From assembly GCF_010731775.1 (NCBI RefSeq), contig NZ_AP022590.1, positions 682,001 through 746,000 of the forward strand: 64,000 nucleotides of DNA, in the 5' to 3' direction. Positions within the stretch are counted from its first letter, which is position 1, and each line of letters opens with the position of its first letter. The notes beneath the pieces are model-generated. The model made no database searches, was not told where the DNA came from, and worked only from the letters and a program-made list of their open reading frames with translations. Source of the stretch: Mycobacterium mantenii (GTDB taxonomy: Bacteria; Actinomycetota; Actinomycetes; Mycobacteriales; Mycobacteriaceae). A program made the translations under genes and the position numbers. This document shows, piece by piece, positions 35,438-60,164 of this stretch.

Positions 35438-35439
35438 CG

Positions 35440-42018: not shown

Positions 42019-42279
42019 CGGACGGAAGTGGATTTGCGGAACCCCCTTATTTCGAAGCTTATTTCTTGAGCTCGCGGTATCACGGCACAAGTCGGTCGCT
42101 TTGCGGGAGGACGTAGCGCAAATGATTTCGCCTCAACGCTGTGGGGCAAAAGCGGGCGAACTGCAAAGGCGAACGTTGGGCAGCTTATGCAGTCTAGGCT
42201 GCACCCCTGACGGGTGCCCCCGCGCAACACTTGCTCCCGCTTCTGCCCGCGGATTGGACGCACTCCTCCCAGGTCGCCC

Positions 42280-42693
42280 ATGATCAGCGCTCACGACTGC
42301 AAATTGATCGACCTACCCAAGATCCACGATCCGCGCGGAAACCTCACCTTCATCGAATCGAGCAGCCATCTGCCGTTCGAGATAGAGAGAGCTTTCTGGA
42401 TCTACGACGTCCCAGGCGGTTCGCTCCGAGGGGGGCACGCTTATCGAACTGGTCAAGAGCTGATCGTTGCGCTCTCTGGGAGTTTTGAAGTCATGCTGGA
42501 CGATGGATCTCATCAAGTTCGGTATACCTTGAATCGCTCCTACCACGCGTTGTTGGTACCAAATCTCATCTGGCGAGAAATGATCAACTTCTCAACAAAT
42601 TCGGTGGCACTCGTCCTTGCCTCTGTTCCCTACGAGCCCGGGGATTACGTGCGGGATTACGAAGACTTTCTGCGACTCCGGAACACCCAATGA
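42280..42693 (+). CDS. FdtA/WxcM-like sugar 3,4-ketoisomerase, copy 1
   Basis: 137 residues from ATG 42280. Single cupin domain of the dTDP-6-deoxy-hex-4-ulose isomerase family: RGNLTFIESSSHLPFEIERAFWIYDVPGGSLRGGHAYRTGQELIVALSGSFEVMLDDG. Family members convert the 4-keto sugar to the 3-keto sugar ahead of 3-amination. The active-site HxH is HAY here (His53, Tyr55), whereas the next gene has HAH, so this copy may be impaired or specialised. It overlaps the next gene by ATGA. Confidence 0.85.
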   Translation: MISAHDCKLIDLPKIHDPRGNLTFIESSSHLPFEIERAFWIYDVPGGSLRGGHAYRTGQELIVALSGSFEVMLDDGSHQVRYTLNRSYHALLVPNLIWREMINFSTNSVALVLASVPYEPGDYVRDYEDFLRLRNTQ

Positions 42694-43124
42694 GCCGCGT
42701 TGACGAATGCAAGCTGGTAGATCTTGAAAGGATCGAAAGTTCCAGCGGCAACCTCTCGCCCCTCTATGGTGGGGTCCACGTGCCTTTCGCGATCAAACGC
42801 GTTTACTACCTGTACGACGTCCCCGGCGGAGCCGAGCGTGGGGGTCACGCGCATCGAGAGCTGCAACAGCTCATCGTTGCGGCCTCGGGTTCGTTTGCGG
42901 TCACCCTTGATGACGGCGAGAACCAGCGAACGGTTTCGCTCGACCGTTCGTATTATGGCCTCTACCTACCAAGCATGATTTGGAGAGAGATCACCGGGTT
43001 CTGCACCGGAGCGATATGTCTGGTGTTCGCCTCGCTTCCTTACGACGAAGGCGACTACATCCGCGACTACGAAGACTTTTTGTCCGCCGCCCGTAGTCCG
43101 GGGAACGGGAGGGACGTCGGTTGA
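42690..43124 (+). CDS. FdtA/WxcM-like sugar 3,4-ketoisomerase, copy 2
   Basis: 144 residues from ATG 42690, overlapping the preceding stop. Same cupin family with an intact HAH (His53, His55) in ERGGHAHRELQQLIVAASGSFAVTLDDG, and YLPSMIWREITGFCTGAICLVFASLPYDEGDYIRDYEDF at the C terminus. The expected reaction is dTDP-4-keto-6-deoxyglucose to a dTDP-3-keto-6-deoxyhexose (FdtA gives the galacto form, QdtA the gluco form). The product should feed the PLP aminotransferase encoded next. Confidence 0.88.
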   Translation: MSRVDECKLVDLERIESSSGNLSPLYGGVHVPFAIKRVYYLYDVPGGAERGGHAHRELQQLIVAASGSFAVTLDDGENQRTVSLDRSYYGLYLPSMIWREITGFCTGAICLVFASLPYDEGDYIRDYEDFLSAARSPGNGRDVG

Positions 43125-43168
43125 GCGGCGCATCGAATGTGCCTCGAATGTTCAAGCAAGGAAACCCC

Positions 43169-44293
43169 ATGACTAACGCTCCTGCTGCCGTGCCCTTTCT
43201 CGATGTTCGCGCGGCGACGCGCGAGCTCGAAGCGCCATTGCTGGAAGCTGTGGACCGCGTCGTGCGCAGCGGCTGGTACGTACTCGGCGATGAGACAAGT
43301 GCTTTTGAACACGAGTTCGCCGCCTTCACCGGCGCCCAACATGCGGTTGGGGTTGGCAATGGCTTGGACGCTATTACCCTTGCCCTACAAGCGCTCGGAA
43401 TTGGCGCCGGCGATGAAGTCATCGTTCCGGCACACACTTTTGTCGCGACATGGATCGCGGTGGCGCGCACCGGCGCGCGTCCGATAGGCGTGGAGCCGGT
43501 TGTTGGCCAATGGAACATTGATCCGGCTCGGGTAGCGGACGCGATTACTTCCCGTACTCGTGCGCTTGTCCCGGTGCACCTCTTTGGCCAGCCGGCAGAC
43601 CTCTCAGAGCTGCTGGAAGCGGCGAAGAAACACGGGCTGGCGGTAGTAGAGGATGCGGCACAGGCGCATGGGGCACGCTATGGTGGTCGGCGCATCGGCG
43701 CTCACAGCAATGCAGTGGCCTGGAGTTTCTACCCCGGCAAAAACCTTGGGGCCCTTGGTGATGGGGGTGCGGTGACCACCGACGATGCAACAATCGCTGC
43801 TCGTGTTAGGTCACTCGGCAACTATGGCAGCAGCCAAAAATATGTACACGACCTTCTGGGGGCAAACTCGCGACTCGACGAGATTCAGTCCGCGACGCTG
43901 CGCATCAAATTGCAGCATCTCGATAGATGGAATGCTCGCCGTCAAGCGATCGCAGCGCGTTACAGCGACGAGCTCGCCGATGTCCCCGGCCTCCGTTTGC
44001 CCGAAGTCGGCCCCGACCGGGAGCACGTCTGGCATCTCTACGTCGTCGACCATGCATCTCGTGATGAATTGCAAAAGCATCTGGCTGCCAGAGGGATTCA
44101 GACTTTGGTCCATTATCCGATCCCGCCGCACAGATCGGGTGCGTTTGCTCAACTAGAACTTGGAGAGGGGGCCTTTCCCATCACGGAAGAAGCGGCGCGG
44201 ACTCACCTCAGCCTCCCTATAGGTCCTCATCTATCGGACGAGGATGTTTCCCGCGTGGTCGACGCCTGCAGATCGTTTTCGTCTTCAGTCTGA
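43169..44293 (+). CDS. DegT/DnrJ/EryC1-type 3-aminotransferase (FdtB/QdtB-like)
   Basis: 374 residues from ATG 43169 (aagga upstream, and family proteins begin at VPFLDVRA); a TTG at 43121 overlapping the previous stop is the alternative. The PLP Lys is Lys191 in WSFYPGKNLGALGDGGAV, with VVEDAAQAHGARYGGRRIG holding the PLP-contacting Asp. With the ketoisomerase upstream, the logical product is dTDP-3-amino-3,6-dideoxy-hexose (Fuc3N or Qui3N type), the sugar later N-acylated. Confidence 0.92.
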   Translation: MTNAPAAVPFLDVRAATRELEAPLLEAVDRVVRSGWYVLGDETSAFEHEFAAFTGAQHAVGVGNGLDAITLALQALGIGAGDEVIVPAHTFVATWIAVARTGARPIGVEPVVGQWNIDPARVADAITSRTRALVPVHLFGQPADLSELLEAAKKHGLAVVEDAAQAHGARYGGRRIGAHSNAVAWSFYPGKNLGALGDGGAVTTDDATIAARVRSLGNYGSSQKYVHDLLGANSRLDEIQSATLRIKLQHLDRWNARRQAIAARYSDELADVPGLRLPEVGPDREHVWHLYVVDHASRDELQKHLAARGIQTLVHYPIPPHRSGAFAQLELGEGAFPITEEAARTHLSLPIGPHLSDEDVSRVVDACRSFSSSV

Positions 44294-44636: not shown

Positions 44637-45665
44637 GTGACCATCCCTGTTATGCCGACTGGGACCGCGCGCCGACCGGTCGCTCTCTTCGTTCTGGGCA
44701 TGCCTCGGTCTGGAACGTCGGCGCTCACGCGGGTTCTCTCGCTGTGCGGCGGTGCGCTGCCGGGGCAGCTCGAGTTAGCCGACTCCTTCAATCCGCGTGG
44801 CTATTGGGAGCCGCGCGAAACCCATCATCTCAACGGCCGCATGCTGCGTCGCCACTACAGCACTGACGCTGACCCGTCACTGCGTCTGCAGGAAGAGGGC
44901 GCACTCGATGTCGAAGAGAAGACTGCCTTCATCGAGGAAGTCAAGGCGTTTCTCACCACGCTGCCGTACTCGTCGCTCGTGGTCATCAAAGACCTCTACA
45001 TAACTGCATTGTCAGAGATGTGGTTCGACGCAGCGCGTCAGACAGGATTCGACATCGCGGCCGTGATCGCCTTACGGCATCCCCAAGAGGTCATCGCCTC
45101 GGTTGCGGCGAGCCGTAGAGTTTCGCCTGAGCTTCCGAATGCACTTCCGAGCGCCATGTGGCTCAAGTACAACCTGCTGGCCGAGAGGAACACGCGTGGA
45201 ATGCCGCGCGTGTTTGTCGAGTACGCCAATCTCCTCCAGGACTGGCGTCGCGAAGTAAAACGCATTTCCGCCGCACTTAAAATCAACCTCGCTAACCGGG
45301 ATGAGTGCGCAGTGGACAACTTTCTCACGAAAAATCTCCATCGCAATCGAGCCTACGGCCCAGTAGCCGAGCCATTCGGCACAGACTGGGTGTCCACTGT
45401 GTATGAAGTGACGCAATCGGCCGCACGGGACGAGCCCTGGAAAGAGTCTGCACTAGATCGTGTCTACGATGCGTATCGCGCGAGCGAACATGCTTTCCGG
45501 ACGGCATTCAACGATTTCAGCGAGGATTTCCGGGACCATATGCCCCCTCCTAACGCCGTACTGCTCCGACTCTTGCCGCGTCGTAACGTGATCATCGAGC
45601 TGCGGCGTCGCCGCGGTGTTCGCGGGGTGAGTGTCGAAGTACGCCGTCGCGGCAGTGTTCGCTGA
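44637..45665 (+). CDS. sulfotransferase-family protein 3
   Basis: 342 residues from GTG 44637. Homologous to the two paralogues at 22621 and 24081: MPRSGTSALTRVLSLCGGALP, FNPRGYWEPRETHHLNGRMLRRH, RHPQEVIASVAASR, VFVEYANLLQDWRREVKRI. The C terminus differs, ending in an Arg-rich tail (RRNVIIELRRRRGVRGVSVEVRRRG). It lies inside the serotype cassette, so may act on the variable oligosaccharide. Donor use of PAPS is family knowledge; the acceptor is unknown. Confidence 0.8.
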   Translation: MTIPVMPTGTARRPVALFVLGMPRSGTSALTRVLSLCGGALPGQLELADSFNPRGYWEPRETHHLNGRMLRRHYSTDADPSLRLQEEGALDVEEKTAFIEEVKAFLTTLPYSSLVVIKDLYITALSEMWFDAARQTGFDIAAVIALRHPQEVIASVAASRRVSPELPNALPSAMWLKYNLLAERNTRGMPRVFVEYANLLQDWRREVKRISAALKINLANRDECAVDNFLTKNLHRNRAYGPVAEPFGTDWVSTVYEVTQSAARDEPWKESALDRVYDAYRASEHAFRTAFNDFSEDFRDHMPPPNAVLLRLLPRRNVIIELRRRRGVRGVSVEVRRRGSVR

Positions 45666-45877: not shown

Positions 45878-46882
45878 GTGAAGACGCTATACGATGCCAA
45901 CGACCCAACGAGCCCGGCTCTCGCTGAGCCCAAGGGCAACAGCCTGATTGGAATCGATGAGGACGGGATTCAACCGATGACCCGCGAGTACACCCAGGCC
46001 GCACAGGCCCTTATCGAGGATCAGGCCCGTTTCGCGCGCGGCAGTATTGAGCGCGCGAGCGCCGAGTTCGGCCCCGTGTGGGACGCCGCCTTCGAGCAGC
46101 TCTTAGCTCACGTCTACCCCGACCCTGCCGCGATGGGCGATGCGGTCAAGGGTTACGCAGCCTTCGCGGTGGACTCAATGCGCCGCCAACGTCGCTTCGA
46201 AAAGGAGCGCGAATACCCTGCCAAGACTTTCGCCGAAGCTGCGCAGGAGGTTTACCTGAACGACGAATACATGCAGACGCAATACCTGCCGGGACTCCTG
46301 CTGTCTCACTACCTGTGGTCCCATCACTATCTGCAATTACAGTACTTTCATCGGTTCTTCTTGCCATCGATGGCTAAGCAGGCCCACCCGCGTTTCGCCG
46401 AGGTCGGCATCGGCACCGGCGTATACTCGCGCATCGCCTTGCAGACGGTGCCGGCCGCGGAAGGCTTTGGCTACGATTTGAGCCCGGTCTCGGTGCGCTT
46501 CACCCGCGCTCACCTCGAGGCCTTTGGGCTGCTAGGTCGCTACAACACGAACTTGCGCGACGTCATCGAGCATCCGCCAGAAGACCAACTGGGCCACGTG
46601 ATCTGTGTGGAGGTGCTCGAACACCTCGAAGACCCTGTGGCCCTGATGCGAGCCCTGAAAAACATGACTAACTCCGACGGCAAGCTCTTCATCACGGCCG
46701 CGCTCAATGCGGCCAATGCCGACCACATCTACCTCTACAGAAATGCCGAGGAGGTACTGGTTCAGGCCGCAGACGCAGGCCTCCACGTGGAGCACTACTA
46801 CTTCGCCAACGCCTACCCAGCCCCGAATCGGGGTGTGCCCGTGCCGGGCGCGATGGCCATGGTGTGTACTCCGGAGCGCTGA
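45878..46882 (+). CDS. class I SAM-dependent methyltransferase, candidate acyl-chain or sugar O-methyltransferase
   Basis: 334 residues from GTG 45878. A long helical N-terminal region (about 1-165) precedes the methyltransferase core: FAEVGIGTGVYSRIALQTV (motif I), GYDLSPVSVRF, GHVICVEVLEHLEDPVALMRAL. The next gene starts 6 bases after its stop (ATG 46888), so it is coupled to the acyl-sugar genes. If the cassette makes a 4'-methoxy acyl group, this is the best candidate for that methylation. That is inference. Confidence 0.82.
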   Translation: MKTLYDANDPTSPALAEPKGNSLIGIDEDGIQPMTREYTQAAQALIEDQARFARGSIERASAEFGPVWDAAFEQLLAHVYPDPAAMGDAVKGYAAFAVDSMRRQRRFEKEREYPAKTFAEAAQEVYLNDEYMQTQYLPGLLLSHYLWSHHYLQLQYFHRFFLPSMAKQAHPRFAEVGIGTGVYSRIALQTVPAAEGFGYDLSPVSVRFTRAHLEAFGLLGRYNTNLRDVIEHPPEDQLGHVICVEVLEHLEDPVALMRALKNMTNSDGKLFITAALNAANADHIYLYRNAEEVLVQAADAGLHVEHYYFANAYPAPNRGVPVPGAMAMVCTPER

Positions 46883-46887
46883 GCCCC

Positions 46888-47466
46888 ATGGCCGATGTCA
46901 TCCTTGAGGGCGAGTTCGTCACCCTGCGGCCATTATCCGTGGACGATGCATCGCTCACACTTGCGTGGCGTCAAAGTGCGCGCGCGGCCAACTTGAATGC
47001 CGCTCCGCAGTGCCTGGAGCAACAAGCGAAATGGATCTCCACGCGACCAGACTCGGAATATAACTTCGTCATTGAGCTAAAAGATGGTCGTCCCGTAGGT
47101 ATGGTCTCACTAACCGGCATCGACATCACTCACGGGCGTGCTGAGCCCGGACGCTTCTTGATCGGGGATGAAGAGGCAGTCCGCGGGGTGCCGGTAGCGG
47201 TCGAGGCTATGAAGCTCGTCTACGAGTTGGCCTTCGTCAAGCTGGGGTTACAACGAGTACATGGGTCCGTCGCGTCCGACAACGTGCTCATGATCAAGTG
47301 GCAGAAATTCATGGGTATGACCGAAGAGGGACGGTTGCGAAATCACTATTTCATTAATGGCAAGTTCCAGGACGCGGTAATTTTCGGTTTGCTGGCCGAG
47401 GAGTACCGAGTAAGAGCGAAACCCAAGATGGACGTCTTTATCAAGGCGGCGAGGAAGACGAACTGA
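46888..47466 (+). CDS. GNAT-family N-acyltransferase (candidate amino-sugar acylase)
   Basis: 192 residues from ATG 46888. GNAT fold of the RimJ/PseH type: LEGEFVTLRPLSVDDASLTLAWRQS at the N terminus, then FVIELKDGRPVGMVSLTGIDITHGRAEPGRFLIG, AFVKLGLQRVHGSVASDNVLMIKWQKFMGM. Similar enzymes acylate nucleotide-linked amino sugars. In this context it should transfer the short acyl chain from ACP or CoA to the 3-amino group of the dideoxyhexose. The alternative is simple N-acetylation. Confidence 0.8.
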   Translation: MADVILEGEFVTLRPLSVDDASLTLAWRQSARAANLNAAPQCLEQQAKWISTRPDSEYNFVIELKDGRPVGMVSLTGIDITHGRAEPGRFLIGDEEAVRGVPVAVEAMKLVYELAFVKLGLQRVHGSVASDNVLMIKWQKFMGMTEEGRLRNHYFINGKFQDAVIFGLLAEEYRVRAKPKMDVFIKAARKTN

Positions 47467-47567
47467 GTTGCACTTGGTAGCGCCTTCCTGGAAGTCCTCG
47501 CTCCGGGCCCCGGCTGGGCAGTGTGGGCAGTTCACCGGTAAGAACATGAGATCCATGGAGTCCAAGT

Positions 47568-47864
47568 ATGAGCAAGCAAGACGCAGTCGAAAGCATCATC
47601 TTTCAGGCCCTGCAAACGCTGAACAAGGAGCGTGCCCCCGACGAGCAGATCGACATCGGCCCTGACACGCCCCTCTTCGGTCCCGATGCGCTCTTGAATT
47701 CACTGGAGTTGGTGTCGGTCATGGTCGATATCGAGACCCTGTCCGCCGATGAGTTCAGCCAGCCCGTGAGTCTGACCGACGATAAGGCTATGGAGCGCGA
47801 TCCGGTTCCTTTTGTCAGCGTATCGACCCTGACTGCCTACATGCTCGAACTGCTGGGCGATTGA
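47568..47864 (+). CDS. acyl carrier protein-like protein 1
   Basis: 98 residues from ATG 47568 (ggagtccaag upstream). Acidic and helical, with DTPLFGPDALLNSLELVSVMVDIE; Ser45 is in the position of the phosphopantetheine-bearing serine. The canonical DSL is NSL, so the usual Asp is replaced. It is followed 9 bases later by a ketoreductase-type SDR, which fits a discrete ACP of a short-chain acyl pathway. Confidence 0.82.
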   Translation: MSKQDAVESIIFQALQTLNKERAPDEQIDIGPDTPLFGPDALLNSLELVSVMVDIETLSADEFSQPVSLTDDKAMERDPVPFVSVSTLTAYMLELLGD

Positions 47865-47873
47865 GCAACGACG

Positions 47874-48590
47874 ATGTCAGTGCGGTACGACGACAAGGTG
47901 GTGCTGGTGACTGGCGCACGCCGGGGCCTAGGCGCGGTGATTGCCGATCACTTCGAGCAGCGGGGGGCCCAGGTAGTGGGCTTCAGTCGTCATGTCGATG
48001 ACGTGCCTAGGTCGGACCGCCGCTTCGACGTGGCGGTGGACGTAGGCGATCCGGGTTCAGTCAGCGGTGGTTTCGAACAAATCCGCAAACGCTTCGGCAA
48101 GCTGGATATCTGCGTCAACAACGCCGCTGTGCTGACTTCGCAGTACGCGATGATATTGCCGGCCGCTTCAGCCAGAGCGATGGTGGACACCAACCTCGTA
48201 GGTGCGTTCCTGGTTTCGCGCGAGGCTGCGAAGCTCATGCGCAAAGGTAAATGGGGCCGCATCGTCGGCGTCAGCTCGATGGCTGTGAGCCTCGAGCCCA
48301 TGGGCGACTCGGTCTATGCTGCGACTAAGGCTGCAATCACCACCCTCGCCAACGTCATGGCGAAGGAACTGGCCACAACGAACATCACTTGCAACACGAT
48401 GGGCATCACGGCCTTCGAAACTGACATGTTGAGGCAGCTGCCTCGCGATAAGGTCGATGCCGTGATCGCCGCTCTGCCGCTTGCGCGCATGGCCACACGT
48501 CAAGATGTGGCGCATGTGCTCGATTTCTTCTGCGGACCCGGCAGCGAGTGCATCACCGCACAAACGGTGTACTTGGGCGGGGTGCATTGA
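47874..48590 (+). CDS. FabG-like short-chain dehydrogenase/reductase
   Basis: 238 residues from ATG 47874. Classical SDR: VLVTGARRGLG, CVNNAAV, VSSMAVSLEPMGDSVYAATKAAI with Ser, Tyr and Lys, and a C-terminal TAQTVYLGGVH. It probably reduces a 3-ketoacyl-ACP to the 3-hydroxyacyl form on one of the discrete ACPs. It lies between ACP 1 and the MBL-fold hydrolase. Confidence 0.88.
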   Translation: MSVRYDDKVVLVTGARRGLGAVIADHFEQRGAQVVGFSRHVDDVPRSDRRFDVAVDVGDPGSVSGGFEQIRKRFGKLDICVNNAAVLTSQYAMILPAASARAMVDTNLVGAFLVSREAAKLMRKGKWGRIVGVSSMAVSLEPMGDSVYAATKAAITTLANVMAKELATTNITCNTMGITAFETDMLRQLPRDKVDAVIAALPLARMATRQDVAHVLDFFCGPGSECITAQTVYLGGVH

Positions 48591-48591
48591 G

Positions 48592-48669
48592 ATGGTTGCG
48601 TCGCGCTCGAACACGATTGACGGGGAGCATGTCGAATGGCTGCGCCGAGGCAGCATGACAGAGAAATGA
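48592..48669 (+). CDS. possible 25-residue leader peptide/small ORF
   Basis: ATG 48592 begins 1 base after the SDR stop and reads 25 codons to TGA 48667-48669. That stop overlaps the ATG (48666) of the MBL-fold gene as ATGA. Its peptide is MVASRSNTIDGEHVEWLRRG plus five more residues, without recognised homology. It would allow ribosomes to pass from the SDR to the MBL gene. It could be a chance frame. Confidence 0.3.
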   Translation: MVASRSNTIDGEHVEWLRRGSMTEK

Positions 48670-49325
48670 CCATTGATACCGACACCCTGCGTGTTGTCGC
48701 GAATCAGGGCTTTCCTTCCAATACCTACCTCTTGGCTTCGGGAACCCCAGGTCACTGCGTGGTCGTCGACCCCGGCCTGGATTCTGCTTCGTTGAAGCAG
48801 ATGCTGAATGATGCCGGCTGGGTCCCCGAGGCCGTGTTGTGCACCCACGGTCACTTCGACCACGTGGGCGGAGCGGCTGAGTTGCAATCGCACCATCACA
48901 TCCCTGTATATCTGCACGCGGCCGATGTGAAAGCGGCCAAGATGTCCAACTTCTTGATGGCTGCCTTCAAGGTCGAACAGCGCATCAAGCTGCCGGAATT
49001 TCAGCTGTTGGAGGGCGAGGATTCACGTCTGGAGTGCGCGGGGCGATCTTTCCTGTTTCACTCAGCGCCAGGTCATACGCCGGGCAGCGCCGTGATCGAA
49101 GTGGACGGATTTTTGTTCTCGGGAGACTCGCTCTATGCCAAACGTGTCGGTCTGTCTCAATTGCCCGGCGAAGACTCGCCGACGCTTCGCCGCTCGCTGC
49201 GCCGCCTGTTCAGCCGCGTGGGAGGCGAGGTACTCGTACTACCGGGGCACGGAGGCAGCGCCACGCTGAAAAACATTCGCGAAAACAACCATCCGCTGCG
49301 TGAGTTCATGGCGGAGCCCGATTGA
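48666..49325 (+). CDS. MBL-fold metallohydrolase (glyoxalase II/thioesterase-like)
   Basis: 219 residues from ATG 48666. The metal-binding HxHxDH is present as CTHGHFDHVGG (His61, His63, Asp65, His66), with FHSAPGHTPGSAV, FSGDSLYAK and LPGHGG completing the site. Glyoxalase II-like members hydrolyse thioesters, so here it may release or proofread acyl-ACP intermediates of the cassette. Its position between the SDR and KAS III genes supports a role in the acyl pathway. Confidence 0.87.
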   Translation: MTIDTDTLRVVANQGFPSNTYLLASGTPGHCVVVDPGLDSASLKQMLNDAGWVPEAVLCTHGHFDHVGGAAELQSHHHIPVYLHAADVKAAKMSNFLMAAFKVEQRIKLPEFQLLEGEDSRLECAGRSFLFHSAPGHTPGSAVIEVDGFLFSGDSLYAKRVGLSQLPGEDSPTLRRSLRRLFSRVGGEVLVLPGHGGSATLKNIRENNHPLREFMAEPD

Positions 49326-49386
49326 TCCGCTCCGTATGCCGACGTAGCGCAGGCCTGTCATTGAGAGGGTTGCAAGCTCTTACGCC

Positions 49387-50427
49387 ATGATCGACGTGTC
49401 AACTTCAGCCGTGTCCCTGCCCGCCGTGTCCATCATCGGCGTGGGCCATCACCTGCCTGCGCGAGTGGTCGCTAACGACGAACTGTGCCAGAAGCTGGAC
49501 CCGGCACAAGCCGTCACACCCGCCTGGATCGAAGAAAAAACGGGCATCCGTCAGCGCCGTATTGCCGCCCCGGACGATACCGCCTGGAGCTTCGCGGTGG
49601 AGGCTGCCAAGCGCGCGATGGCTATGGCGCAAATCACCGCTGAGCAGCTCGATATCATCATTTGCTGCACCTTTTCCGGTGACTACATCTACCCTCCGGT
49701 CTCAGCCAAAGTGCAGCAACAGCTAGAGGCCGAGCATGCACAAATCTACGATGTGCAAGCCAACTGCTCGGGCTTTGTTACCGGGTTGACCGCAGCGTCT
49801 GACCGCATCAGGGTGGACGACACCTTGCGCTACGCGCTCGTCATCGGCGTCGAAATGCTCAGCCGCTACATCGACGGCAGCGACGTCAACACCGCGATAT
49901 ACCTCAGTGACGGCGCCGGTGCAGCTGTACTAAGCCGAGTGGCGGAGGGCGGTATTCGCCACTCCGCTTTCCATACCGACAGCTCTAATTTCGATGCAGT
50001 GCGCCAGCGCGGCGGGGGCTCGATGTTTCCCACGAACGGCCGCCCGTTCGATCGCACGGTGGACTTGATGGAGATGAACGGTATCGCCACGTGGAAGCAG
50101 GCCATCACACATCTTCCGCCCACTATTCGGAAGGCGATCGCTAAGTCAAGTTACGAAGTCAGCGACATTGACTTCGTAATCTTTCACCAGGCCAACCTGC
50201 GGTTGATCGAATACCTCGTGAAAAAAATGGGATTCGGCTTGGAGAAGACATATGCCAACGTAGCCGAAGTGGGCAACACCGGCTCAGCATCGCTCGCCAT
50301 CGCATTGAGTGAAGCAGTAACGAAAGGCAAGATGCGGCGAGGCCAGCGCGTGGTGTTGGCAGGCGTGGGCGCAGGGTTCAACTTCGCAGCGAGCGTATGG
50401 GATTGGACTCTGGAGATGCCACAGTGA
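49387..50427 (+). CDS. KAS III (FabH-like) ketoacyl-ACP synthase
   Basis: 346 residues from ATG 49387. The thiolase-fold catalytic triad is complete: Cys127 in VQANCSGF, His267 in FHQANLRL and Asn297 in VGNTGSAS. Such enzymes condense an acyl starter with (methyl)malonyl-ACP. Here it could join a C2 or C3 starter to a C3 extender to give the branched short chain. It is not the mycobacterial FabH of mycolate synthesis, judging by context and divergent sequence. Confidence 0.92.
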   Translation: MIDVSTSAVSLPAVSIIGVGHHLPARVVANDELCQKLDPAQAVTPAWIEEKTGIRQRRIAAPDDTAWSFAVEAAKRAMAMAQITAEQLDIIICCTFSGDYIYPPVSAKVQQQLEAEHAQIYDVQANCSGFVTGLTAASDRIRVDDTLRYALVIGVEMLSRYIDGSDVNTAIYLSDGAGAAVLSRVAEGGIRHSAFHTDSSNFDAVRQRGGGSMFPTNGRPFDRTVDLMEMNGIATWKQAITHLPPTIRKAIAKSSYEVSDIDFVIFHQANLRLIEYLVKKMGFGLEKTYANVAEVGNTGSASLAIALSEAVTKGKMRRGQRVVLAGVGAGFNFAASVWDWTLEMPQ

Positions 50428-50512
50428 AGTGGACTGAGCGCTTGGCCGCCGCCGTGTTGAACTGCGTCCGTTCTTTGGGTTCGGGCGATGTGATCATCGA
50501 CCGAGGATTGCC

Positions 50513-51715
50513 ATGACCGTGTTCACTGATTTTGATGACGTCAAGGAAGGCGATACTGCCTCCCTTGTCAAAACCATCACCGAGGCCGACATCCTCAGGT
50601 TTGTTGAGCTAACGGGTGACAATAACCCGCTGCACGTTGACGCCGAGTACGCGAATCACACGCCGTTCAAAGAGATCGTCGTCCACGGCATGCTGGGCGC
50701 TTCGTTCATCTCGACCGTTATCGGCACCAAGCTCCCGGGTCCCGGTGCGCTGTGGGTATCGCAGTCATTCGACTTCAACTTGCCAGTGCGCCTGGCCGAC
50801 ACGCTTACGGTGGCCTGCACCGTAGTACGCAAGCACGCACGTGACCGCTTGCTAGAGCTGCAAATGCAGATCACCAACCAACATGGCCAGACTGTCTTAC
50901 AAGGTCAGGGCAAAGTCAAGCTGCTTGAAGCGCCCAAAGCCACGGTTGTAGCGCCTAAGTCCGCGCTCAAGGTAGCCATCGTCACTGGCGGGGCTGGGGG
51001 CATTGGCAGTGCGATTTGCAAACACCTCGGCGCCGGCGGGTACTCGGTCGTCGTCAATTATTTAAATAACCGCAATCGCGCGGATGCGCTGGTACGTCAG
51101 TTGAACGCAATCGAACCTGCAAAGACACGCGCCCTAGCAGTACAGGCGGATGTCTCGACCGTAGAGGGGTGTGCGCGCTTAAAAGATGCTGCGAGAGAGC
51201 AATTCGGCGGCGTGAGTGCGTTGATCAACGCCGCCTCGCCGCGCATCATCGCCAAACCGCTAACTGAAATGTGCTGGGCCGATATGCAAGAGCACCTTGA
51301 TGTACAAGTCAAGAGCGCCTTCCTAGCGATCCAAGCCGTGACGCCGCCCATGGTGGCCAACGGGGGAGGGCGCATTGTCTGCATAACATCGGAATCGATC
51401 GACGGCACACCGGTCAGTGGCTGGACAGCCTATGCCACCGGCAAGGGCGCGCTTGCGACGATGGCGCGCTACCTTGCGGCGGAATTTGGCCCGAAGGGTA
51501 TAACAGTCAACTGTGTGTCGCCGGGCATGACAGATACCCGGTTCATCAGCGGCATCTCTGAAAAGCAGCAATTGATGACCGCGCGCCTAAAACCCTTGCG
51601 CCGCTTGGGTACACCGGGCGACATCGCGGGAGCAGTTGCTTTCTTGTTGTCTGACCAGGCTTCTTACATCACCGGCCAAAGCCTGAGGGTGAACGGCGGG
51701 GGAACGATGTCGTGA
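50513..51715 (+). CDS. MaoC-like hydratase - SDR ketoreductase fusion
   Basis: 400 residues from ATG 50513. Residues about 1-140 are a hot-dog MaoC domain with the hydratase dyad in DNNPLHVDAEYA and a HGML helix. Residues about 155-400 are an SDR with VAIVTGGAGGIG, an INAASP variant of the NAG motif, ITSESIDGTPVSGWTAYATGK (Ser, Tyr, Lys) and SYITGQSLRVNGGGTMS. One chain could both reduce and (de)hydrate acyl thioesters. It overlaps the FkbH gene by GTGA. Confidence 0.9.
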   Translation: MTVFTDFDDVKEGDTASLVKTITEADILRFVELTGDNNPLHVDAEYANHTPFKEIVVHGMLGASFISTVIGTKLPGPGALWVSQSFDFNLPVRLADTLTVACTVVRKHARDRLLELQMQITNQHGQTVLQGQGKVKLLEAPKATVVAPKSALKVAIVTGGAGGIGSAICKHLGAGGYSVVVNYLNNRNRADALVRQLNAIEPAKTRALAVQADVSTVEGCARLKDAAREQFGGVSALINAASPRIIAKPLTEMCWADMQEHLDVQVKSAFLAIQAVTPPMVANGGGRIVCITSESIDGTPVSGWTAYATGKGALATMARYLAAEFGPKGITVNCVSPGMTDTRFISGISEKQQLMTARLKPLRRLGTPGDIAGAVAFLLSDQASYITGQSLRVNGGGTMS

Positions 51716-53487
51716 GTGACGCGCATGCCGAAGCCTTGGAGATCCTGCGCAACTCCAACGCACCAATGACCGACGTGCTGAAGGCGTTGTCCACGCTTGA
51801 TAAAGCAGAACACAAAGGCCGTACGATCAAGCTCGGAATCGCCGCCAATATTTCGGTAGACCTGCTGGGTAATTATCTCCGCCGCCATGCCTACCTCGAG
51901 GACGTGCGGCTTGAGGTCATCAACGGTTCTTACGATGACCTGCTAAATGACGTGGCGGATTTTGTCGCGCAGGACGTTGACCAGCTACTGATAATCCCTT
52001 TCTTCGATAATCTTTACGCCGCGTGGGAATCTCAACTTGACGCGCTCGCCGCCGATGAGCGGCAGGCAAGGATGCAGACGTGGCTGTCGAAGCTCCAGCT
52101 TGCATTAGGTCAAGCAGCATCGGTGGGCCGATTGACGCTCGCTGGTGCTCACCTATGGAACCACATGCCGTATGGAGCCGCAGCTGACCTGCTGCTCGAA
52201 TTCAACGGCGCAATGAAGGCGCTGGCGGACGCGCACGCAAACGCACAGTTTCTCGACACCGTGGGGATTGTGAGTTATTTGGGCGAGAAGGTCGCATTAG
52301 ATGCGCGCTTCTACTACGCGGGCAAGGCCCCGTACACGCCAACCTTCTTTGATGAGTTCGCGCGCCGCTTTGCACTCGCCACACGCGGCTTCGGTTCATA
52401 CTTCTACAAGGTGCTGGCACTGGACTGTGACAACACGCTTTGGGGCGGTATCGTCGGCGAAGACGGCCTGAACGGAATCGCGCTCGATCCATACGACTAT
52501 CCAGGCAATGTCTACTGGACTGTGCAGCAGCAACTTCGCCAGCTCGAATCCCGAGGCATCTTGCTCTGCCTGTGCACCAAGAACAACGTTGAAGACGCCG
52601 ACGAGGTGTTTGCGAAGCACCCTAACGCAGTCCTGAAGGATGAGCACTTTGCTGCCAAAAAAGTGAATTGGGACCCGAAGGTCGCGAGCCTGCGAGCCCT
52701 TGCCGAAGAGCTGAACCTTGGCCAGGAGAGCTTCATCTTCGTCGACGACTCCGATTTCGAATTAGAAGCTGTGCGCACGCAGTTGCCGCAAGTCAAGGTG
52801 TTTCAAGTGCCGAAGAAGCTGAGCGACTACCCCGCGATGCTGCGGGACATAGCCTCGCTCTGCTTGGCCGGCGGGTTGAGCGCCGAGAGCAAGAGTAGAA
52901 CCCAGCAATATAAACAGCTCGCCTTGGCGGCTACCGGGCAGGAAACCTTTGCGAGTCAAGAGGATTACCTACGATCGCTCGACCTGAAGGTGCATATCTA
53001 CCGCGACGCGCGCGAGCAGATCGCCCGCATCGCTGAGCTGACGCAGAAGTCCAACCAGTTCAATCTGACGACGCGCCGTTATACGCCAGGCGAAATTGTG
53101 ACGCTGATGGACCGCCCGGACAGCACGGTGTACTCGTTCGACGTCCGTGATCGGTTTGGAGACTGTGGCATAACGGGCGTGATCGTCGTGGACTTCGCAG
53201 CCGAGCACGCGATTATCGACGCCTTCTTGATGAGCTGCCGCGTGATAGGGCGCGGCGTTGAGTTTGCTGTATGGCCCGCAGTACTGGACGATATACGAGA
53301 GCGCGGCAATCACGGGTTGACGGCCAGGTACCTGCCCTCCGCAAAAAACGCGCAAGTGGCGGACTTTTTTGACCGGCTCGGCCTCTCAAAAGTGGAAGAA
53401 TCCGACGACGGTGCGCGCCGTTACGAAGCCCAGCTGGACAGCGTCCGGCTGGCAGATAGCGATTGGGTGAAGTTGATCAATGGTTGA
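51712..53487 (+). CDS. FkbH-type HAD-IIIC protein, probable starter-unit loading enzyme
   Basis: 591 residues from GTG 51712, which overlaps the previous stop. An N-terminal domain of about 230 residues precedes the HAD phosphatase core, with its nucleophile near residue 238 in LALDCDNTLWGGIVGEDG and a second motif FVDDSDFELEAVR. A C-terminal GNAT-like part includes DRFGDCGITGVIVVDF. FkbH proteins convert 1,3-bisphosphoglycerate to glyceryl-ACP, and relatives provide lactyl starters. Such a unit would give the oxygen at C4 of the acyl chain. The ACP gene overlaps its 3' end. Confidence 0.9.
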   Translation: MSDAHAEALEILRNSNAPMTDVLKALSTLDKAEHKGRTIKLGIAANISVDLLGNYLRRHAYLEDVRLEVINGSYDDLLNDVADFVAQDVDQLLIIPFFDNLYAAWESQLDALAADERQARMQTWLSKLQLALGQAASVGRLTLAGAHLWNHMPYGAAADLLLEFNGAMKALADAHANAQFLDTVGIVSYLGEKVALDARFYYAGKAPYTPTFFDEFARRFALATRGFGSYFYKVLALDCDNTLWGGIVGEDGLNGIALDPYDYPGNVYWTVQQQLRQLESRGILLCLCTKNNVEDADEVFAKHPNAVLKDEHFAAKKVNWDPKVASLRALAEELNLGQESFIFVDDSDFELEAVRTQLPQVKVFQVPKKLSDYPAMLRDIASLCLAGGLSAESKSRTQQYKQLALAATGQETFASQEDYLRSLDLKVHIYRDAREQIARIAELTQKSNQFNLTTRRYTPGEIVTLMDRPDSTVYSFDVRDRFGDCGITGVIVVDFAAEHAIIDAFLMSCRVIGRGVEFAVWPAVLDDIRERGNHGLTARYLPSAKNAQVADFFDRLGLSKVEESDDGARRYEAQLDSVRLADSDWVKLING

Positions 53488-53713
53488 CCCGACAAAGATC
53501 AAGGAAGTGATGGCCGCGGTTTTGGAGGTAGATCCGTCCACGATCAGCGAGGACGCCAGTATGGACAGCATTGAGAGCTGGAACTCGCTGCGCCAGATGA
53601 GCTTGGTGCTCGCGCTCGAAGAAGAGTTCGGGGTGTCCTTTCCGGATGAAGATGCAGCCAACGCCACCTCGTTCAAGCTCCTGTCGCTGGTGCTGCAAGA
53701 GCAGGTCGCCTGA
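53480..53713 (+). CDS. acyl carrier protein-like protein 2
   Basis: 77 residues from ATG 53480, overlapping the FkbH stop by 8 bases. Typical small ACP: SMDSIESWNSLRQMSLVLALEEEFGVSFPDEDA. Ser36 is the expected phosphopantetheine site, and the usual WDSL is WNSL. Direct overlap with the fkbH-like gene makes it the probable acceptor of the glyceryl or lactyl unit. Confidence 0.88.
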   Translation: MVDPTKIKEVMAAVLEVDPSTISEDASMDSIESWNSLRQMSLVLALEEEFGVSFPDEDAANATSFKLLSLVLQEQVA

Positions 53714-53752
53714 GTGCGAAAGCCCCTCTAAAGATCCATCGTGGAGGTCGGC

Positions 53753-55090
53753 ATGGACTGGCTCATCGAGCGCTTCGCCAGCGCACGCAATAAAACCGCT
53801 TTTATCCACCACGGAACGCCGTTCAGCTATGGCCAGATGGTGGACCGAATCTCCGTGCTGGAGTCCCAGCTTCAGAAGGCCGGTGTCGGCTACCACGACA
53901 CCGTGGTGGTATTGGCTGACTACGCGCCAGAGGTCGTGTGCATGCTGCTGGCATTAGCGCGGCTCCGAGCCACCGTTGTGCCCATGACTCGCGGCTCGGT
54001 GATCGAAGAGAGTGAGGTTCTGGGCATTTCGGGCTGTACCCGACGGATCGCCTTCGCGCCGGACGGCATCACCTGGGAGATGGAGACGCATTCCGTGGAG
54101 GTCATCAATCCGCTGATGTCTGAGTTCCGCCAGACGGAAAGCCCAGGCTTGGTGCTGTTCTCATCCGGATCTACCGGCAAGCCTAAAGGCATGCTATACG
54201 ACTTCTGGCGCGTCACGGACAGGTTCAAGATGCAGCGCGTGCCGGTGGTGGCCGTACCATTTCTTCTACTTGACCACTTTGGCGGCATTAACACCATTCT
54301 CGCCATCACCAGCAGCCTGGGCACAGTAGTCACCACCGAGGACCGTCTCTTGCCGACCATTTGTGCGGCAATCGAGAAGTACAAAGTCGACTTGCTGCCT
54401 ACCACGCCGTCTTTTCTGACCATGCTGGCCGCGACCGACTTGCCGGCGCGTTACGACTTGAGTTCATTGAAACGGATCACCTATGGCACAGAGACCATGC
54501 CTCAGGCGACGCTTGATCGCATCCGTGAGCGTTTCCCGAATGCGGAGTTGCAACAAACCTACGGGCTGTCGGAGGTGGGTGTGCTGCGCTCTCAGTCACG
54601 CCCCGATGGCTCGCTTTGGTTAAGGATCGGTGGCCAGGGCTTCGAGACGCAAGTGCGCGACGGCATTCTGTGGATCCGCTCGGAGTTCCGAATGTTGGGA
54701 TACCTGAACGCGCCCTCGGGCTTCGACGATGAGGGGTGGTTCAACACACAGGACCGCGTGGAAGTCGATGGCGAATGGTTTAAAATCTTGGGTCGCGTCA
54801 CCGACCTTATAAATGTGGCGGGGCAAAAGGTCTACCCGGCCGAGGTAGAAGACGTCATCCTGCAATTGCCCAACGTGACCGATGTGGTGGTGAAGGGGGA
54901 GAAACACACGCTGCTGGGCCAGATCGTGGTGGCGCATGTTGCGCTGAGCGAGCCCGAACCGTTGCCTGAGCTGCGAGCCAGGATCCGTCTGGCATGCCTG
55001 TCTAAGCTCACGGACTATAAGGTGCCGGCCAAGGTGGTGTTGATGGAGGCCGAAATGTATTCGGCAAGGTTTAAGAAAGTGCGCCAGTAA
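53753..55090 (+). CDS. AMP-dependent acyl-CoA/acyl-ACP synthetase
   Basis: 445 residues from ATG 53753 (GGAGGT 4 bases upstream); GTG 53741 is possible. ANL adenylating enzyme: P-loop LVLFSSGSTGKPKGM, TYGTET, QQTYGLSEVG, WFNTQDRVEVDGEWFKILGRVTDLINVAGQKVYPAEVE, and a C-terminal SARFKKVRQ with the candidate catalytic Lys. It is somewhat shorter than typical acyl-CoA ligases. It would activate a short carboxylic acid for an ACP or CoA in the same pathway. It is the last plus-strand cassette gene. Confidence 0.9.
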   Translation: MDWLIERFASARNKTAFIHHGTPFSYGQMVDRISVLESQLQKAGVGYHDTVVVLADYAPEVVCMLLALARLRATVVPMTRGSVIEESEVLGISGCTRRIAFAPDGITWEMETHSVEVINPLMSEFRQTESPGLVLFSSGSTGKPKGMLYDFWRVTDRFKMQRVPVVAVPFLLLDHFGGINTILAITSSLGTVVTTEDRLLPTICAAIEKYKVDLLPTTPSFLTMLAATDLPARYDLSSLKRITYGTETMPQATLDRIRERFPNAELQQTYGLSEVGVLRSQSRPDGSLWLRIGGQGFETQVRDGILWIRSEFRMLGYLNAPSGFDDEGWFNTQDRVEVDGEWFKILGRVTDLINVAGQKVYPAEVEDVILQLPNVTDVVVKGEKHTLLGQIVVAHVALSEPEPLPELRARIRLACLSKLTDYKVPAKVVLMEAEMYSARFKKVRQ

Positions 55091-55102: not shown

Positions 55103-56086
55103 CTACGGCTGAGATCCGACCGGATTTAGGTTGGCGCGCAAACGCCAGGCCCGGGCGAATTCGCGGAACGGCGCGAGCATCAACGTTTTTATGCGCGAGC
55201 GTCGGTCCGGCCCGTAGAGCACGACTTCCAGGAATCGCAGCACCCATACGGGCGACCACCACACCGCTGCGATGAAGCGAATGACTGCTGGCGATGCGGG
55301 ATCCACGATCACCCATGTGAGGAGACGCAGGCGGTCTAGCCACCAGGTTCTTGCTGCGAAGGCTTCTCCGGTAAACGGTGTGTGCTCCCGTACCGAAAGT
55401 TCCTGCGGGACAAAACAAGCTGTCGACCTGAGTAGCAAACGTAACCAGAGATCAAGGTCGGAGAGATGGGCGATGTCATCGCGGATCCCGCCCGCATCGA
55501 TTGCCAATTGGCGCCGAAACATCACATTGGTCGGCTCTCCGATCCAATTGGTGCCTAAGCCTTGCAGCGTCATCTGCAAGACCAGCGAGGAGCCGCGGTT
55601 ATGCTCTTCGAGCTTTCGAAAGCGGGTATGCAGCGTGCCACATTGACGTAGCCAGACGAGGTCGTCAGTCAGTACACGTCGAGGCGCGAAAACCAGTCCG
55701 ACAGTCGGATCGTCGAAATAGGCGACGAGTGTCCGCAGTGCTCCCGGAAGCAAGTAGTCATCGCCGTGTACGTATTGGATGTAGCTGCCGCGCGCGAGTT
55801 CTAATAGTTTGACGTGGTTTCTATGGGCGCCGAGGTTCGATTCGTTCCGTATCAGCCGGTCTCCCGGTCTCAGCATTTTTTCGGCAATGGCGACGCTGTC
55901 GTCCGGGGAATTGTCGTCGACGATGATGAGTTCGTACTTCGCATCCTGATCCAGGATACTGCGTAAACAACGCTCGATGGTCGCACCGTTGTTGTACATC
56001 GGCACGCACACCGAAATAAGCGGCGTCGCCGACGAATCCTCGGCGTGAAAGTTCACCGATAGTGCAGTCGACACATCGTCAGGCAA
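55103..56086 (-). CDS. family 2 glycosyltransferase, serotype cassette 1
   Basis: 327 residues from TTG 56086, favoured by gaaggga about 10 bases upstream. GTG 56074 also fits, and the frame stays open to 56218. GT-A core: [70 protein letters not shown] hydrophobic C-terminal segment ([19 protein letters not shown]) may bind the membrane. It is paralogous to the GT at 56488. Probably a rhamnosyl- or acylamino-hexosyltransferase of the serotype oligosaccharide. Confidence 0.87.
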
Positions 56087-56487
56087 TGTGGTGACATCCC
56101 TTCCCAGACGTAGACGTTCTTGCAGGGTGTTTCTTCTGGAAGAAGTTCGCTGACAACCTGTGTCGAGTCTCCACGCCGCGGCGCCGGCACGGCATGCACG
56201 TCCGCTGAACGCAGACACTCAGCCATCGCGTCTCGTGGAACGGCCGAGCCGGTTCTCCTTGACAGAATTCGTCGATCTCTGATGGTCCCAGGCGGCGCCG
56301 AGCGCATCGACCTACTGCCGCCAACCATCATCAGGACAGGCACGCGGTGAGCGTACACCGGTGCTTGCAGCCGTCGTCGACTATTCAGTACGGCGGTTCC
56401 AGCTTTCGACGATTCCCTGAACAGGCGAGCAGCACATGTCGCTTGGAGCGTGGCGGGTCCGCGATCGTGCTCATCCAGTACGGTGGC
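56087..56487. other. intergenic region between cassette glycosyltransferases
   Basis: A 401-base gap with no supportable gene. Two short imperfect direct repeats (attcagtacggcggttcc at 56390 and atccagtacggtggctca at 56472) are about 80 bases apart. They may be scars of recombination after duplication of the flanking GT2 genes. Confidence 0.35.
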
Positions 56488-57441
56488 TCACCTCGGTACA
56501 GGCCGCAGCTCGGCACGAAACCGTCTCGCCCGCACGAACTCGCTAACGGGTGCCGCTAGCAAGGTCTTCAGGCGCGAGGTTCGCTGGGGCCCGAACACCG
56601 TCACCTTGAAGAGCAGCCCCAGCCACACAAGTAACCACCACGGCGTCGCAGCGGCGCGGACGCCAAAGGTAGACGCCGGATCCACAATCATCCAAGTGAG
56701 AATGCGTAGCTGGTCGAGCCAGTGCCGTTGAGCCTTGGTGATATTCGACGACTCGGTGCTACCGGTGTGATGCCTTACCGAGAGTTCCTGTGGCACAAAG
56801 CAAACCGCTCCCCGCAGCATGAGCCGCAGCCAGAAGTCCAAGTCGACCGTTTGATAGACGTCGTCCCGCAGGCCTCCCGCCTGCAGTGCCAGGCAGCGCC
56901 GGAACATCACGCAGCTGGGTTCACCGATCAAATTCGCGCTCGCGCCCCACAAGGCCACGATCTGTAGCACCAACGACGATCCGCGGTTGTGTTCGCGGAG
57001 CTTGGCAAAGTAGACATGGAGTTTGCTCGGGGCCCGCCGTCGCTCACTCCAGGGGAGGTCGTCGGTTTGCACCTGCCGGGGCGCGAAGGCCAGCGCCACC
57101 TCGCGATCCTCGAAACAGTGGGCGAGCGTCCGCAGGGCTCCCGGAAGCAACCAGTCATCGCCGTGCAGGAATTGGATATAGTCGCCACGGGCGACTTCCA
57201 GGCATTTGTTGTGGTTTCCGTTCAGACCCAGCCGAGACTCGTTGCGTATCAGTCGATCTCCCGCGCGGACCAATTTATCGGCAATGGCTGCGCCATCGTC
57301 GGTCGACTGGTCGTCGACGATGACGATCTCGAACTCGACGCCGTCCTGATCCAGGATGCTGCGCAGGCAACGCTCGATCGTCGCGCTGTTGTTGTACATC
57401 GGGACACACACCGAGACCAGTGGTGTGGCCGGCTGGGTCAC
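56488..57441 (-). CDS. family 2 glycosyltransferase, serotype cassette 2
   Basis: 317 residues from GTG 57441, whose GTGA overlaps the drrC stop, so it is coupled to drrABC. Motifs: [67 protein letters not shown]. Highly similar to the GT at 55103, so a duplicated pair with probably different acceptors. A long frame extending to 58020 is only antisense read-through of drrC. Confidence 0.9.
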
Positions 57442-58229
57442 GCGTTGGCCTCGGCTGCCAATCGGTAGCCGCGAACGGCGACCGGGATGAACACCGCGAG
57501 TAGCCCGACCGCCCAGATCAACGTGATCACTAGAGGCGCCGCGATCGGGCCGCCGTGGGCGAGGGACCGCATGGTCTCGATGGGTGGCGAGATCGGTTGC
57601 ATGCGGATCAAGGGCTGAGCCCAAGCCGGAAACAGCTTGAGGGGTGTGGCACCGGGATTCACGAACGCCAGCGCGAAGGTAACGCCCAAAACCCAGGTCA
57701 TCGCAGTCCGGCCGTTGTTGCGGATGGCCATCGCCATCACCAGGGCGGTGAAACCGGTCACCACGATCGACGGGATCAAAACGAAAAGCAGTGCCGCGGG
57801 CCAGCCCTGCATGAAGCGCAGCCCCATTGCCAGCCCGAGCACAGTGATCAGGATGGTGCCGATGAATGCGCGCACTACCTCTGCCATAACCCAACCGGTG
57901 ACCGCGCTCGCCCGGTGGATCGGCAGCACCCACATCCGACTGAGGACGCGCGACTCGCGATCCATGGTGATGCCCACCGAGTTGCCCAGGGATCCGAAGA
58001 GCGCCGATATCACCGCGCACATGGGGACTATGCCGTAAACGGCGTCCGCACCGGTGACCTTGTGCACCTGCTCGCCCAGCACGATTTTGTAGATGACCAG
58101 CAGGAAGACGGGTAACAGCAGCGATCCCAGCAGCACCGCTTGGTCACGCCGCCACCGCAGCAGGAGTCGGCCGGCCTGCACCCAGCTTTGGGTCAGCAGG
58201 GAACCCTGTGGCTCGAGGCGATGCGACAC
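57438..58229 (-). CDS. drrC: DrrC-like ABC-2 transporter permease
   Basis: 263 residues from GTG 58229, whose first base is shared with the drrB stop. Six hydrophobic helices typical of ABC-2 permeases: [42 protein letters not shown], then [16 protein letters not shown] and so on. It marks the right end of the MAC serotype cassette (the gtfB-drrC interval). With DrrA and DrrB it may export GPL or another complex lipid. The substrate is not shown by sequence. Confidence 0.9.
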
Positions 58230-59913: not shown

Positions 59914-60106
59914 CCTAGGAGTATTTCATGAGGCGTAGCGGCCAGGTGGCGGTATAGGTGGATAGCGATATGGAGGATAGCGCAGGCCTTTCCTTATGGT
60001 CACCGTGAACTCCGCCGGCGCGGACCAATGCCATTTGCAGCGGGGGAGTTCGGAGTGTTCCAAGCAAAATCATTGGCGTCCAATCTTTCTCGCCGCGCTT
60101 CTTCGG

Positions 60107-60123: not shown

Positions 60124-60164
60124 ACGCTATCCGGGGCTTGAATCGACCAGCAGCACCTAGAGGT

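Follow-up and report, generated by a model that had tools for sequence, protein, structure and literature searches.

The window analysed here is a 64-kb stretch (contig positions 682001-746000) of the single-contig Mycobacterium mantenii genome, which comprises 6,185,541 bases. Eight plus-strand genes between window positions 47568 and 55090 encode two acyl carrier proteins (ACP), an FkbH-type protein and discrete acyl-processing enzymes. Together with the methyltransferase and acyltransferase genes just upstream, they probably form a horizontally acquired mini-polyketide pathway of discrete enzymes, which would make the N-acyl group of a 3-amino-3,6-dideoxyhexose on glycopeptidolipid (GPL). 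Gene content, conserved active-site residues, a division into two modules, co-occurring sugar genes and signs of foreign origin all point to this pathway. An earlier sequence-only reading had proposed a short hydroxyacyl group, built on discrete ACPs from an FkbH-loaded starter by ketosynthase extension and reduction, and transferred by the acyltransferase to an amino sugar of a surface glycolipid. Comparative genomics favours both proposals, and the interpretation as a whole is partly supported. The genes of the cassette are as follows.

45878..46882, plus strand: S-adenosylmethionine-dependent methyltransferase MT2 (Methyltransf_23/12/11), proposed to methylate the acyl group
46864..47466, plus strand: GNAT N-acyltransferase (PF13302; PseH match below cut-off), proposed to transfer the acyl group to the amino sugar
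47568..47864, plus strand: ACP1 (conserved Ser45, helical model), proposed carrier of the extender unit and the extended chain
47874..48590, plus strand: FabG-like short-chain dehydrogenase/reductase, SDR (PF00106 and PF13561; best NCBIfam match FabG, below cut-off), proposed beta-keto reductase
48636..49325, plus strand: glyoxalase-II-like metallo-beta-lactamase-fold (MBL) hydrolase (PF00753), proposed thioesterase
49387..50427, plus strand: ketoacyl-ACP synthase III, KAS III (PF08541/PF08545), lacking the arginine that stacks on coenzyme A (CoA)
50513..51715, plus strand: fused MaoC dehydratase-SDR reductase, MaoC-SDR (PF01575 and PF13561/PF00106), proposed to convert glyceryl-ACP to lactoyl-ACP
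51712..53487, plus strand: FkbH-type glyceryl transferase/phosphatase (TIGR01686, 270.4 bits against a cut-off of 146.65)
53480..53713, plus strand: ACP2 (PF00550), proposed carrier of the starter unit
53741..55090, plus strand: AMP-forming acyl-CoA/ACP ligase (PF00501/PF13193)

All eight genes of the run are complete open reading frames. The MaoC-SDR and FkbH genes overlap by 4 bases and the FkbH and ACP2 genes by 8 bases; the remaining gaps are 9-85 bases. The run described in the sequence-only reading (ACP, SDR, MBL hydrolase, KAS III, MaoC-SDR, FkbH, ACP, AMP ligase) is real, with the family assignment confirmed by Pfam and NCBIfam for seven of the eight genes. The upstream methyltransferase (45878) and GNAT (frame from 46864) are likewise real by Pfam. 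The exception among the eight is ACP1, which had no match to Pfam or NCBIfam models at E 0.001. Its profile search gave weak ACP matches (best E 0.057), and its predicted model is helical (pLDDT 86), with Ser45 at the beginning of helix II. In a structure search, nine of the ten best matches were carrier proteins or carrier-containing entries (best E 0.12, none at or below 0.001). ACP1 was called an ACP because of the conserved Ser45, the helical model and these weak carrier-protein matches.

Related loci were fetched by a MaoC-SDR profile search of named genomes, from which the best 80 of 213 relatives were taken. The fused protein was found in 60 loci by match length, or 59 by frame length. 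FkbH lies directly downstream on the same strand in 59 of the 60 fused loci (all but L024), and ACP2 follows in 58, the exceptions being L024 and L028, the latter at a contig end. All nine genes from GNAT to ligase occur in 35 fetched loci, in the same order and strand by match positions in 31 of them. This nine-gene arrangement is more than chance. Twelve genes were scored in 42 well-flanked loci, with identity cut-offs set by us that miss distant copies. FkbH and ACP2 were found in all 42, KAS III and ligase in 33 each, SDR in 31, ACP1 and MBL hydrolase in 30 each, GNAT in 29, FdtB in 28, FdtA in 27, and MT2 in 19. KAS III and ligase co-occur strictly: both are present in 33 loci and neither in 9. 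Loci with KAS III, FkbH, MaoC-SDR and ACP2 number 47 in 10 phyla; 35 of them belong to Pseudomonadota, and many are metagenome bins.

These distributions suggest that the cassette is split into a starter module (FkbH, ACP2, MaoC-SDR) and an extension module (KAS III, ACP1, SDR, hydrolase, ligase). In 9 of the 42 well-flanked loci, only MaoC-SDR, FkbH and ACP2 were found among the twelve genes scored; counting the shorter-flanked L049 and L054, there are 11 such minimal loci (Bacteroidota 6, Omnitrophota 2, Elusimicrobiota 2, Nitrospirota 1). By protein search, a DegT homologue lies near 9 of the 11, but not at L047 or L049. The surroundings of five minimal loci (L055, L046, L054, L047, and L050) were partly annotated. 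Around L055 lie a flippase, several glycosyltransferases and DegT, and around L054 a hexapeptide acyltransferase, a methyltransferase and again DegT. A GNAT is directly upstream in L046, and a glycosyltransferase is upstream in L047. The MaoC-SDR, for which the sequence-only reading had no clear role, was assigned to starter formation because it is paired with FkbH and ACP2 even where KAS III is not nearby.

A related mycobacterium (G283) carries a non-orthologous acyl module at the equivalent island site, between GT2 and FdtB/FdtA (L097, G283:C1:5143000-5162900, 11042-16687). Its FkbH is divergent (227 bits, cut-off 146.65), and MaoC and SDR domains are combined in one protein of 506 residues. 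A small protein carries an ACP-like motif and matches no family. The module also encodes a methyltransferase, a GNAT and a glyoxalase-family protein, and KAS III had no match in it. The second fusion beside an FkbH, with no KAS III match, also places MaoC-SDR at the starter. Acyl cassettes seem to be exchanged at the GPL-island site.

Alternatively, the starter might stay glyceryl and MaoC-SDR might act after KAS III, by ketoreduction, then dehydration or hydration and perhaps enoyl reduction; the same amino sugar would then carry an acyl group that is polyhydroxylated, unsaturated or reduced. Beta-keto and beta-hydroxy acyl chains are the classical substrates of MaoC and FabG-like domains, and the fused gene sits between those of KAS III and FkbH. 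Both SDRs match PF13561, described in Pfam as enoyl-ACP reductase, so enoyl reduction may also take place. However, the nine minimal modules keep MaoC-SDR with FkbH and ACP2 where KAS III was not found, and the distantly similar fusion of G283 accompanies FkbH and an ACP-like protein in the same manner. Moreover, KAS III is accompanied by the separate FabG-like SDR in 31 of 33 loci at the identity cut-off. A glyceryl starter is considered unlikely on this evidence.

In the preferred pathway, with a lactoyl starter, FkbH would load glyceryl from 1,3-bisphosphoglycerate on ACP2, as expected from its family. The MaoC half of the fusion would then dehydrate glyceryl-ACP2, a 3-hydroxyacyl thioester, to enol/pyruvoyl-ACP2, and the SDR half would reduce this intermediate to lactoyl-ACP2; this would be the simplest chemistry for a dehydratase-reductase fusion acting on the FkbH product. 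KAS III would join lactoyl-ACP2 to malonyl- or, more likely, methylmalonyl-ACP1, the separate SDR would reduce the beta-keto group, and MT2 would methylate, probably on the lactoyl-derived hydroxyl. The methyltransferase gene at 45878 was correctly recognised in the sequence-only reading; the fold of MT2 matches natural-product C-, O- and N-methyltransferases alike, which leaves O- and C-methylation both compatible with it. The hydrolase and ligase would free and then re-activate the acid, probably as a CoA thioester, and the GNAT would move the acyl group to the dTDP-3-amino sugar supplied by FdtA and an FdtB-like aminotransferase. A GT2 enzyme would join the sugar to the glycan. The predicted acyl group is 2-methyl-3-hydroxy-4-methoxypentanoyl, from lactoyl and methylmalonyl units with one ketoreduction and one O-methylation. 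The methylmalonyl extender was taken from the reported GPL structure of serotype 16 (see below).

The ligase could have a different role, such as extender loading. In a stronger form of this idea, it would activate free lactate or (methyl)malonate as starter or extender, and FkbH would do something else. The ligase is present in all 33 well-flanked loci with KAS III and keeps the adenylate-former motifs. Its closest solved relatives, the 4-chlorobenzoate and 4-coumarate CoA ligases, give no substrate clue. The nine minimal modules have no ligase, and the FkbH/ACP2 pairing makes FkbH the simplest source of the starter; the stronger form is thus judged rather improbable.

Presumed catalytic residues are conserved across relatives of the cassette enzymes. 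The positions scored in the alignments are those which we take to be catalytic in each family, and the counts for MBL hydrolase, KAS III, MaoC-SDR and FkbH include one M. rhizamassiliense gene twice (L003 and L005). The carrier serines are kept in all rows (ACP1 Ser45, 39/39; ACP2 Ser36, 60/60), as are Ser135/Tyr148/Lys152 of the separate SDR (42/42) and Cys127, His267 and Asn297 of KAS III (51/51). The seven metal-site residues of the MBL hydrolase are kept in 43-45 of 45 rows, the remaining two rows being gaps. MaoC Asp36/His41 are kept in 82/82 rows, 20 of which are lone MaoC proteins, and Tyr/Lys of the fused SDR in 62/62 rows reaching that domain. In the HAD DxDxT motif of FkbH, both Asp residues are kept in 62 of 63 rows and Thr in 60.

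The KAS III lacks the CoA-stacking arginine of FabH. In E. coli FabH, the CoA adenine is held by Trp32 and Arg151. At the Arg151 position, all five aligned FabH structures (three near-identical) and the FabH-like protein of this genome (L104) have Arg; none of the 51 cassette KAS III rows (50 distinct) does, and these have Val (30), Ala (15), Pro (2), Ser (1), Ile (1), Glu (1) or Lys (1). Among the other FabH positions, Arg36 is replaced by Lys in 49 rows, and Arg249 is kept in 30. The ACP-docking positions Lys214 and Lys257 have Lys in 49 rows each. This pattern would suit a KAS III whose starter arrives on ACP2 instead of CoA, but it is no proof of one.

The sugar genes flank the cassette, and are listed below with the glycosyltransferases.

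42214..42693, plus strand: FdtA-type dTDP-4-keto-6-deoxyglucose 3,4-ketoisomerase, copy 1 (PF05523, 169.9 bits)
42690..43124, plus strand: FdtA-type 3,4-ketoisomerase, copy 2, in tandem (PF05523, 170.2 bits)
43121..44293, plus strand: DegT-family sugar aminotransferase (PF01041, 393.5 bits), FdtB-like by its place beside FdtA
55103..56218, minus strand: GT2 glycosyltransferase (PF00535), candidate for transfer of the acylated sugar
56488..58020, minus strand: second GT2 glycosyltransferase (PF00535 at residues 203-347), with a listed frame probably too long at the 5' end

FdtA shifts the keto group to C3. Two FdtA genes and the DegT aminotransferase lie directly upstream; therefore, the sugar should be a 3-amino-3,6-dideoxyhexose, and the aminotransferase would make the 3-amino sugar. 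The viosamine/anthrose pathways named in the sequence-only reading are analogues. Membership of that type was rejected, because two FdtA 3,4-ketoisomerase genes precede the FdtB-like aminotransferase.

Among 396 same-genus genomes, FdtA was found above cut-off in 9, and FkbH at E <= 1e-30 also in 9, a threshold that misses the divergent FkbH of G283. Two FdtA copies, as in the tandem pair here (42214-43124), are present in 8 of the 9 FdtA genomes. MaoC-SDR was found at E <= 1e-60 in 3 genomes, namely M. mantenii, M. rhizamassiliense (G242), and G046. In all three, the run stands together with FdtA, FdtB and two GT2 genes; copies of the first GT2 (55103..56218) at the equivalent place are 82% identical in G046 and 78% in M. 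rhizamassiliense. The MaoC-SDR match of G046 (G046:C1:1593145-1594320) covers residues 1-392 of 400 and has one in-frame TGA, so this copy may end early. The cassette was not found beside FdtA in the six other same-genus FdtA genomes, with 7-20 kb examined in each; one of these six is G283, with its different acyl module.

The sugar genes also bear on another idea, in which they would be mere neighbours and KAS III would turn glyceryl- or lactoyl-ACP2 into a ring or a small free metabolite, as in tetronate biosynthesis. FdtA, FdtB and GNAT each accompany the cassette in 27-29 of the 42 loci. The scan of 41 window proteins called no polyketide synthase (PKS), although no search was aimed at the tetronate acyltransferase (Agg4-type) or dehydratase sequences. 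Such a product appears very improbable.

A quick KAS III tree placed the three mycobacterial proteins as one group in a 13-row clade (SH-aLRT 99), together with nine betaproteobacterial (Burkholderiales) rows and one Gemmatimonadota row. Three Geodermatophilaceae proteins were placed apart from the mycobacterial group, and a single clade of all six actinobacterial rows was rejected by the approximately unbiased (AU) test (p 0.0045; five divergent rows, L039, L042, L045, L051 and L064, were left out). The G+C content of 45878-55090 is 58.9%, versus 68.4% for 1-20000, 64.2% for 20001-40900 and 63.0% for 58229-64000. The tree and the G+C drop therefore indicate horizontal acquisition. A KAS III-based search of 396 genomes of the phylum at E 1e-90 found only the M. 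mantenii copy, and the MaoC-SDR-based counts could thus not be checked by this route. The cassette is conserved and mobile, and in mycobacteria it was apparently acquired from another phylum.

Around the gene run, Pfam identified EryCIII-type glycosyltransferases, TylF-type methyltransferases, a pyruvyltransferase, GT2 enzymes, an ABC exporter and MMPL proteins. Past the window end, MbtH lies at contig position 749362, and condensation domains occur in frames of 3486 and 2563 amino acids. The domain types of a GPL-type locus (non-ribosomal peptide synthetase (NRPS), MbtH, MmpL, ABC exporter, glycosyl- and methyltransferases) were all found around the island. We take this layout to be that of a GPL locus, which would make GPL and whose NRPS would build the GPL core. 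Further out, past the presumed GPL synthetases, an 8249-amino-acid frame with condensation domains lies at contig positions 768154-789738.

Several other genes of the window deserve mention. The polysaccharide pyruvyltransferase (34388-35458), unmatched in the 40-kb stretch of G046, suggests that the glycan of the M. mantenii strain contains a pyruvylated sugar. Three related sulfotransferase-like proteins are encoded at 22531-23652, 24021-25079 and 44637-45665, the last inside the acyl/sugar island; the second has no Pfam match itself, and matched the same G046 place as the other two. A methylmalonyl-CoA mutase pair and MeaB lie at 14346-19605, the pair about 30 kb upstream of the cassette. 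They are a possible source of methylmalonyl-CoA near the cassette, perhaps placed there only by chance.

Several observations weigh against the proposed pathway or narrow it. For the KAS III, 47 of 51 rows retain Trp32, which alone would still allow CoA binding, and Lys stands at the Arg151 position in one row. For the two-module division, the nearest scanned genes at minimal locus L050 are a radical SAM protein upstream and a family-less protein downstream, and a ketosynthase encoded elsewhere could serve the nine minimal loci. For the acyl group, the sequence would allow malonyl as well as methylmalonyl, and MT2, whose best structural match is the C-methyltransferase Fur6, could supply the 2-methyl group. 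The 3-amino assignment depends on FdtA, as the aminotransferase is below the cut-off of every NCBIfam equivalog listed. FdtA occurs without the cassette in six of the nine same-genus genomes, so the acyl group is not dictated by the sugar. The counts describe neighbourhoods of MaoC-SDR (the best 80 of 213) rather than all FkbH or KAS III genes. The chemistry of the whole route is predicted from genes.

A broader interpretation can be offered tentatively, with slightly less than even confidence. FkbH, ACP and the fused MaoC-SDR might be a free-standing and widespread device converting 1,3-bisphosphoglycerate to lactoyl-ACP, spread over 13 phyla (47 fetched loci with KAS III and 11 without) and used for surface glycans. 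It might make N-lactoyl-type sugars directly, or branched dihydroxy-acyl groups through the added KAS III module, whose ketosynthase would have given up CoA binding; mycobacteria might have acquired the complete cassette from a donor resembling proteobacteria and use it as an interchangeable unit for making antigens. The proposed pathway would trace, gene by gene, how an epitope that defines a serotype is made, and would connect FkbH chemistry, known from macrolides and tetronates, with the surface glycans of many phyla. It would also provide a genome rule for N-acyl groups: lactoyl-type for the minimal module, extended for the full cassette, and methylated with MT2. A KAS III apparently adapted to an ACP-borne starter also becomes directly testable.

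The lactoyl route from the FkbH product follows the same logic as that proposed for the bryostatin loading module, in which FkbH-type loading is followed by a dehydratase and a ketoreductase to give a D-lactoyl starter. The bryostatin enzymes are domains of one large synthase for a macrolide, whereas those of M. mantenii would be free enzymes serving a sugar.

The viosamine island of Pseudomonas syringae (PMC3927599) includes an ACP, KAS III (vioS), a reductase (vioR), the acetyltransferase-type VioB, vioM and an aminotransferase (vioA), and makes a 4-amino sugar with an N-(3-hydroxy-1-oxobutyl) group; VioM methylates the sugar. A discrete ACP, KAS III, SDR reductase, N-acyltransferase and aminotransferase are thus shared with M. 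mantenii. Unlike the M. mantenii run, the seven-gene table of that paper lists a single ACP; FkbH, MaoC-SDR, ligase and hydrolase are absent from it, and the sequence-only reading was right to call the run richer than this analogue. Residues of the KAS III here that bear on a CoA-borne acetyl starter, as in the viosamine type, point both ways: the CoA-stacking Arg is absent in 51 of 51 rows, and the Trp is kept in 47.

The tetromadurin glycerate-utilisation operon mad7/8/16-18 (PMC7489565) combines an FkbH-like protein and a free ACP with a FabH-like protein that acts on glyceryl-ACP; this protein, Mad16, was proposed to form the tetronate ring and release the PKS chain. The M. mantenii run has the same FkbH, ACP and FabH-like set. 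It differs by the MaoC-SDR and the amino-sugar genes, and no PKS was called nearby; a tetronate pathway is unlikely here. The same paper (PMC7489565) describes the methoxymalonyl-ACP pathway mad11-15, in which an FkbH-like protein and a free ACP, both also present in the M. mantenii run, make glyceryl-ACP, which is oxidised by two dehydrogenases before an O-methyltransferase acts. This pathway was rejected for M. mantenii, because glyceryl-oxidising dehydrogenases were not called in the run, to which the search was limited.

The closest known system is probably that of M. intracellulare serotype 16. Fujiwara et al. (2008, J Bacteriol) reportedly described its GPL with a terminal 3-(2-methyl-3-hydroxy-4-methoxypentanoyl)amido-3,6-dideoxyhexose. 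The cluster is said to span 22.9 kb with 17 open reading frames between gtfB and drrC, and to hold three glycosyltransferases, an acyltransferase, an aminotransferase and a methyltransferase. Its reported product and gene types fit the prediction for this window, and the reported gene content also fits G046; the full glycan may differ, given the pyruvyltransferase found here and not matched in the G046 stretch. The cluster and its product are thus probably already known. Among the matches listed in searches of the open-access literature, no paper dealt with this cassette. The starter chemistry and its wide spread look new. If this correspondence is right, what the present analysis adds to the known cluster is a role for each enzyme, the division into two modules, the changed KAS III and the wide distribution.

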